Virus record (IMG/VR): IMGVR_UViG_3300027896_000089
Span: 1-41,843 of that record
From: a virus
Strand: one strand, 5' to 3'
Length of the DNA stretch: 41,843 bases
The translations under genes were made by a program, and so were the position numbers. The notes beneath the pieces were generated by a model. That model was given only the letters and a program-made list of their open reading frames with translations, made no database searches and was not told the origin of the DNA. Below, in pieces: positions 16,476-17,657 of this stretch. The number at the start of each line of letters is the position of its first letter. The first letter of the stretch is position 1.

Positions 16476-17657
16476 ATGTCTGACCAAATACAACGCAGGG
16501 GCGGCACTACTGCTCAACATGCAGGATTTACGGGCGCATTGCGTGAAATAACCATTGATACTGATAAAAAGGTAGTAGTCGTCCATGATGGCGCTACTGT
16601 GGGTGGCTTTCCGCTACTACGTCAAGATTTAAATAATTTTCCTGCTGGCGTGTTTGCACCAACAGCCTCACCTACTTTCACAGGCAACACAACCGCTTCA
16701 TTCGTTAGAGGTGAATTTAGAAAAGATGCGCCAACAGCAGTTGCCTTTACAGTAACAGCGGCCTTTGCAGTATCGACGCAAACACAGATGTACATTGATG
16801 TTAATGGCACTTGTTTAACATTTGCATCGGGTACAGTGGTGGTAATGCCATCAGCGGTAACAGGTACAGATTATGCGATATGGGCAGAAACAGCAGGAAC
16901 TATAACCTGTACTAATAACTTCGTCACACCACCTACGGCTAATGCTCGTAAGATTGGTGGCTTCCATTATGCACCCGGTGGTAATGCAGCCGCTCAATCG
17001 GGTGGTAATACTACGCCTTATATCAATGCTTATTCGCTATGGGATTTAAAGTTTAAGCCTGCTTGTAATGATCCACGCGGCATGACTTTAGTTGCTGGTA
17101 ATTTCTGGGCTGATATTTACCTATTAAATACCGATCCTGATACTAACGGCACATCTAAATATAACGTCACCATTGCTGATGGCAGTAGTCCTCCCAAAGT
17201 ACCGACTAAGTTTGGTGGTAATGGCACAACGACTTATACAACACTGACATGGTGGGAAGCTAATGAAGTCTTGGCGGCTAACGGTAAACGCTCGGCCAGC
17301 TATCAAGAATACACAGCGTTAGCTTTCGGTACAACAGAAGCCAGTGCTATCAGCACAGATCAAGTATCAACTATCCTAAATGCTGTTTACACCTCGAAAT
17401 GGGGTGTTATGCAGTCTACAGGCGTAATGGATGTTTGGGGCAAAGACTTTGGTGGTGGCGCTGGAACGGCTGCATGGACGGCTAATACCACAAGCAGAGG
17501 CTCTACTTATCAGCTTTGTAATGCCGTGAACTTTGGAGGTAACTGGGGTGTTGGGGCGAACGCAGGTTCTCGTTACTCGAACTGGAGCGTCCCGCCTACG
17601 AGCTCGTTCAACCTCATCGGTTCGCGCGGTGTCGTTGACCACCTGTTACTTGATTAA
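16476..17657 (+). CDS. Mtd-like receptor-binding tail protein with DGR variable C-terminus
   Basis: The 393-residue protein starts with an Mtd-type N-terminal domain (RRGGTTAQHAGFTGAL, VVVHDGATVGGFPLL). Its last ~130 residues are a C-type-lectin/formylglycine-enzyme-like fold (TWWEANEVLAANGKRSASYQ, KWGVMQSTGVMDVWGKDFGG) ending in GGNWGVGANAGSRYSNW and a final IGSRGVVDH segment. This layout is that of Bordetella phage BPP-1 Mtd, the distal receptor-binding protein whose end is rewritten by a DGR. Codon choice changes abruptly in the last 35 codons. It follows the fibre gene and precedes the Brt remnant. Confidence 0.9.
   Translation: MSDQIQRRGGTTAQHAGFTGALREITIDTDKKVVVVHDGATVGGFPLLRQDLNNFPAGVFAPTASPTFTGNTTASFVRGEFRKDAPTAVAFTVTAAFAVSTQTQMYIDVNGTCLTFASGTVVVMPSAVTGTDYAIWAETAGTITCTNNFVTPPTANARKIGGFHYAPGGNAAAQSGGNTTPYINAYSLWDLKFKPACNDPRGMTLVAGNFWADIYLLNTDPDTNGTSKYNVTIADGSSPPKVPTKFGGNGTTTYTTLTWWEANEVLAANGKRSASYQEYTALAFGTTEASAISTDQVSTILNAVYTSKWGVMQSTGVMDVWGKDFGGGAGTAAWTANTTSRGSTYQLCNAVNFGGNWGVGANAGSRYSNWSVPPTSSFNLIGSRGVVDHLLLD
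17530..17640 (+). other. DGR-type variable repeat (VR)
   Basis: The end of the Mtd-like gene encodes FGGNWGVGANAGSRYSNW and further codons in which variable sites have the form NNC or NNT where AAC/AAT is expected in a template: TTT, GGT, GTT, TAC, AGC, GTC, AGC, TTC, CTC. Retained AAC codons remain at 17541, 17559, 17580 and 17610. A GC-rich invariant block (about 17616-17640) would be the IMH-like end. No template repeat was found in the window. Confidence 0.8.

Follow-up and report, generated by a model that had tools for sequence, protein, structure and literature searches.

How a phage lectin comes to carry the marks of a DGR, and whether it is still being diversified by one, are the questions raised by the window analysed here, that is, the whole stretch of 41,843 nucleotides of the viral record IMGVR_UViG_3300027896_000089. 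We addressed them by searching the window for the components of a DGR, by comparing it base by base with its closest relative, L001, and by following the fate of DGRs next to related lectins. The features on which the argument rests are the following:

16476..17657, + strand: mtd, receptor-binding lectin of 393 aa, homologue of BPP-1 Mtd (Pfam, PHROG, BPP-1 and PDB matches)
16488..16598, + strand: Mtd_N domain, residues 5-41 (Pfam)
about 17526..17635, + strand: VR of 110 nt, counterpart of the L001 template repeat (A-site differences from the L001 template)
17626..17645, limits approximate, + strand: putative IMH, the IMH-like 3' end of the VR, GCGGTGTCGTTGACCACCTG (common to the L001 VR; analogy with BPP-1)
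17658..17673, + strand: stem-loop AGTGGC-GAAA-GCCACT with a 6-bp stem, 3' of the IMH (same place in L001, L008 and L009)
17675^17676, + strand: deletion junction, between whose bases L001 11201-12659 (1,459 bp) is missing (base-by-base comparison)
17676..17842, + strand: RT remnant, the C-terminal 54-56 aa of a DGR RT, in an open frame without a start codon of its own (Brt, phrog_1423 and relatives)
17829..18068, + strand: next gene, bbp4 homologue, whose start overlaps the RT stop as in BPP-1 (Bbp4 64%, E 8e-39)

The lectin gene and its variable end

By homology, the ORF at 16476-17657 is a Mtd-type receptor-binding lectin of a BPP-1-like phage. Pfam places Mtd_N at residues 5-41 (E 4e-14) and mtd_2nd at residues 90-190 (E 3e-15), and the protein shares 50.4% identity with BPP-1 Mtd over its full length (1-393), in agreement with the Mtd-like N-terminus of the original prediction. 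It also matches the tail protein family phrog_11262 (E 1.7e-110). The lectin-like C-terminus, predicted at the same time, is borne out by the Mtd crystal structures 1yu0-1yu4, which match by sequence over all 393 residues (E about 1e-110; 5.8e-111 for 1yu1). It is on this homology to the solved Mtd that the C-type lectin fold would be assigned; AlphaFold2, run on a 16-sequence alignment, gave a mean pLDDT of 44, insufficient for a fold search. The genes around mtd are BPP-1-like as well, with a tail gene upstream, a head-tail connector, an integrase and RecT, and the bbp4 homologue directly downstream. The phage is probably temperate.

Some observations on related proteins and on the rest of the window can be added here. 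The lectin module (about residues 79-393) carries several unrelated N-termini in L005, L008, L011, L012, L015 and L018-L022, and the Mtd_N part is also found on other phage proteins without the lectin module. Two phage T7 entries, LR745708 and LR745707 (L072), have Mtd-like tail fibres; the annotation of LR745708 indicates that these are laboratory-made chimaeras combining T7 gp17 with BPP-1 Mtd. In the window itself, a tandem array of 12-bp units, with one step of 18, lies inside a minus-strand ORF at 39815-40066, and short adjacent ORFs on the minus strand at 33908-34955 contain direct repeats at similar places, in the manner of duplicated genes.

The fingerprint of the VR was tested against the templates of relatives, the window's own template being absent from the record. 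Compared with that of L001, 12 of 29 adenines are changed and only 3 of 81 other bases (Fisher p = 4e-6), and the bias towards A sites is found again with the templates of L003, L004, L006, L010 and L025 (p = 4e-5 or better). Within AAY codons, it is positions 1 and 2 that are altered. These comparisons support the view that the C-terminal VR of the window Mtd bears the fingerprint of adenine-directed mutagenesis, as had been claimed for its AAY codons from the gene alone; the check then proposed, that variation in related phages be restricted to expected-A sites, gives this result with L001 and with the five further templates. The shift in codon usage claimed for the gene end was also recovered: AAC represents 5 of 37 codons in the VR against 5 of 350 in the remaining mtd, and third-position C amounts to 38% against 18% (p = 0.009).

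Differences at sites other than A are mostly 0-2 between the VR and its own TR in intact relatives, and 3 between the window VR and the template of L001. One of them, T>G at VR position 99, exists in the L010 template too and may be inherited. The changes 32 T>C and 67 T>C occur in none of the relatives' templates compared; they could be ordinary mutations in a VR that has ceased to be overwritten, unless the lost template itself differed there.

At the 3' end of the VR, the putative IMH has the same sequence in the window and in the L001 VR, whereas the template copy reads GTCGTGACGG; this assignment is proposed by analogy with BPP-1. The stem-loop that follows has a counterpart in BPP-1, GCGGGGCC-GAAA-GGCCCCGC, and the BPP-1 element promotes retrohoming (PMC12875486). 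In the window the hairpin forms in the DNA centroid fold, the whole 65-nt stretch being not unusually stable (z = -1.4). The IMH-like end and the stem-loop are both retained, right up to the deletion junction.

The deletion behind the stem-loop

L001 is about 92% identical to the window over long stretches and possesses a complete mtd - avd - TR - RT cassette. The window tracks it up to position 11200 on the left of the junction and from 12660 on the right, and is collinear with it on both sides; the 1,459 bp lost in between correspond to avd, TR and RT codons 1-276. The left breakpoint lies two bases past the stem-loop, and comparison of the window with L001 revealed no microhomology at 17675^17676. 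In the whole 41.8-kb record we found no match to an RVT_1 domain, hence no RT with the YxDD catalytic motif, no match to Avd and no second VR-like copy that would be a template repeat.

The AAC-rich template expected by the original prediction is thus missing from the record, in which RT subsists as a 3' remnant only. From the description ‘DGR-type hypervariable’, a Mtd lectin with a DGR fingerprint can be kept, but not current variation in cis, since TR, Avd and a functional RT are gone. In a reconstituted system, inactivation of RT, Avd or TR brings activity down to background (PMC12875486), which makes rewriting of the window VR in cis impossible. The comparison with the tropism-switching cassette of BPP-1 (mtd - bbp7/avd - TR - brt - bbp4) leads to the same point. 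The gene order is the same and Mtd is homologous over its full length; as in BPP-1, the VR lies at the 3' end of mtd, a stem-loop with a GAAA loop comes after it and the end of RT overlaps the next gene. Unlike in BPP-1, the deleted components are precisely those without which the switch cannot work in cis.

The RT remnant is 58.8-60.8% identical to the C-terminus of Brt of BPP-1-type phages and matches the RT family phrog_1423 (E 2.4e-7). It corresponds to about residues 276-332 of the RT of relatives and is 96% identical to their residues 277-332. That this tail persisted is probably due to the start of the next gene, which falls within it (17829) just as bbp4 starts within brt in BPP-1. We also considered that the tail could be a functional small protein, and rejected this idea: there is no in-frame start codon in the window, the length of the retained tail varies across lineages from about 18 to 137 aa, and other lineages have none. 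A remnant kept through overlap with the next gene is the simpler explanation. Only 2 of 167 nt separate the tail from that of L001, and it contains no lesion, whereas 82 of 1050 are changed in the mtd body, which suggests that the loss of the DGR is probably recent; the 2 of 167 do not exceed the difference between two intact relatives.

DGR loss and variable tips among related phages

A scan of IMG/VR with the window protein yielded 71 loci, and more were added when cellular genomes and IMG/VR were scanned with a profile. Among 111 non-duplicate lectins, 66 are accompanied by an intact RT, 9 by a broken DGR and 24 by no DGR, while 12 were left out of the RT classes, mostly since the contig ends there. 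With 9 broken and 24 DGR-less loci against 66 with intact RT, a VR-like codon pattern is insufficient proof of an active DGR.

Where the DGR was lost the lectin ORF is retained, and several independent scars can be recognized. In L009, Avd 1-19 is joined to RT 196-332 without any junction repeat. In L021 (6293-6748), Avd 1-49 and RT 229-330 form one open frame, an in-frame fusion that would be expected by chance for one in three deletions. Avd is followed by RT 285-331 in L088 and by the last RT residues in L130; L150 is also scarred, and L137, L139 and L180, from three metagenomes, have one common junction. L080 displays an internal deletion within RT, and RT of L077 breaks off after codon 151, where an insertion element appears to interrupt it. 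The junctions show repeats of up to about 10 nt (in L130) or none at all (window, L009), as illegitimate deletion would leave. When the lectin bodies are placed on a tree built without the VR, intact and lost states require 21 changes, at least 14 of them forced by well-supported branches. Such a tree cannot separate gain from loss; the scars can, for the scarred lineages. Loss of the DGR recurs among related phages.

Other loci of this collection show different arrangements. In L168, an ORF at 3139-3735, which by eye resembles a NUMOD4/HNH homing endonuclease, stands in place of the DGR cassette, and the upstream sequence is 98.9% identical to the DGR-positive L144. The template of L002 (4387-4502) differs from that of L001 at 20 of 29 A sites and 3 of 81 others, with an intact RT alongside, and templates downstream of mtd in L125 and L166 are likewise depleted of adenines. 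The cause would be either that the DGR wrote over its own template or that the assembly exchanged VR and TR.

Do tips still change once the DGR is gone? The 14 sister pairs with an intact DGR and two or more body differences show changes at 6-11 of the 11 variable residues. Among the DGR-less pairs, the VR is identical in L011-L117 (0/11, for a body differing at 37/268) and in L013-L014 (0/11, body 4/271), and nearly so in L074-L075 (1/11, body 20/268). VR differences of 0-1 are therefore found in 3 of 6 DGR-less pairs and in 0 of 14 intact pairs (p = 0.018, a value that is indicative only, the pairs having been picked by us). In the DGR-less pairs L012-L013, L130-L150 and L143-L146, on the other hand, 10-11 of 11 VR residues differ.

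A single loss in a common ancestor of L130 and L150, with their VRs diverging afterwards, was considered and would have favoured rewriting in trans, but their deletions have different 5' ends. Given these distinct breakpoints, and the existence near L130 of an intact genome, L175, which is 99.6% identical to it downstream, the two losses are independent; both deletions used short repeats around GGGC. L143 (at 3925) and L146 (at 1460) carry before the next gene a common leader, GGTAGGAGAATAAT, that is missing from DGR-positive relatives, and identity is lower downstream than upstream. This suggests that the DGR-less segment was acquired by recombination. L012, L013 and L014 exhibit the same DGR-less layout; between L012 and L013 the body differs at 8/271 and the VR at 11/11, some of these differences being at non-A positions. 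For both L012-L013 and L143-L146, the divergence of the VR may come from separate losses or from recombination. As for the window, whose deletion is shared by no sister, its lectin would now be frozen.

History of the locus and its place among known systems

Taken as a whole, the history that we consider very probable is that the window Mtd was diversified by a DGR, was recently orphaned by a deletion and is now fixed. In the past, the host-contacting tip of Mtd would have been diversified by a DGR in cis, the RT-Avd complex copying the template RNA, misreading adenines and giving a mutated cDNA that replaced the VR. The 1,459-bp deletion, extending from behind the stem-loop to the 3' third of RT, would later have taken out five sixths of RT together with Avd and the template, leaving the lectin fixed and evolving as an ordinary gene. 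Changes by retrohoming would then have ended in the VR, and the phage would be viable as assembled; the advantage, if any, might be to keep a good binder while shedding the mutator.

Alternatively, the VR could be non-autonomous: the deletion spared the VR, the IMH and the stem-loop, and a helper DGR, from a co-infecting phage or a resident prophage, would rewrite it in trans. We regard this as unlikely. The IMH-like end and the stem-loop are indeed intact up to the junction, but the stem-loop is present in 0 of 23 loci without any DGR remnant. In E. coli, a DGR encoded on a separate plasmid is active in trans (PMC12875486) and L001, a close relative, has a matching template, yet no helper was seen with the window phage, and 8 cellular genomes with a DGR-less Mtd contain no DGR-type RT save one weak and distant match. 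VRs have diverged in some DGR-less pairs, but three such pairs are frozen, and the window VR has accumulated at least two non-A changes, which regular rewriting would erase. That such phages would make use of the mutators of others, the DGR being shed with the landing site left complete and the tip rewritten solely in cells shared with a DGR-positive relative, seems quite unlikely to us.

The evidence for the deletion genotype comes from one metagenomic record, the exact junction is absent from all other viral contigs searched, and assemblers are known to be troubled by VR/TR repeats and by VR diversity. The junction could thus be an artefact of assembly or amplification, or a minor deletion variant in a population that has the complete DGR. 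This is very unlikely, as the VR/TR repeat does not include the junction, which, for want of microhomology, offers no shared k-mer on which an assembler could join; moreover, comparable junctions exist elsewhere, that of L137, L139 and L180 in three metagenomes. The population may nevertheless include DGR-positive members.

It is highly improbable that the DGR core sits elsewhere in the phage genome, past the ends of this linear and perhaps incomplete record. DGRs are able to act on remote targets (PMC3521204), but the RT remnant, at the canonical place and collinear with L001, shows that a cis core was once here and was lost, and a record of 41.8 kb, against 42.5 kb for BPP-1, leaves little room. 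Finally, receptor-binding tips do diversify through ordinary positive selection or recombination, but an origin without any DGR is refuted here by the differences at template-A positions and by the DGR RT remnant adjoining mtd.

The preferred reading, a lectin diversified by a DGR and then orphaned, echoes several documented cases. Treponema denticola strains without RT and TR keep DGR targets, in which VR-template differences are mostly at adenines (PMC4891356); there, as in the window, the target gene outlives the DGR core and differs at A sites. However, the Treponema targets are bacterial, of lipoprotein type and known by presence or absence across strains, whereas the window is phage DNA with a junction resolved to the single base and an RT scar. 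The DiGReF collection lists DGRs whose RT is inactivated by nonsense mutation, frameshift or insertion element, and the same work puts forward repeated independent losses as one of two ways to account for the distribution of DGRs (PMC3521204). In these DGRs RT is lost and the VR persists, as in the window, but VR and TR are both kept, while the TR and Avd of the window are gone. Synechococcus phages S-CBS1 and S-CBS3 encode a "major tropism determinant" that is 35-40% identical to the window Mtd over about 70% of it, and mtd of S-CBS3, like that of the window, has no annotated RT within 4 kb.

A global survey has estimated that 50-75% of DGRs were recently active, viral ones most (PMC8144416); since this survey began from RTs, orphaned targets such as that of the window would have escaped its count. 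Orphaned DGR targets being already known from Treponema, the window Mtd would be a phage-lectin instance of them, and earlier accounts may exist outside the open-access literature.

DGRs are usually described as assets kept by phages. The loci described here provide close relatives with and without a DGR, resolved to the single base, among which loss is recurrent. When a targeted mutator stops paying could therefore be tested by comparing sister phages of free and fixed tropism.
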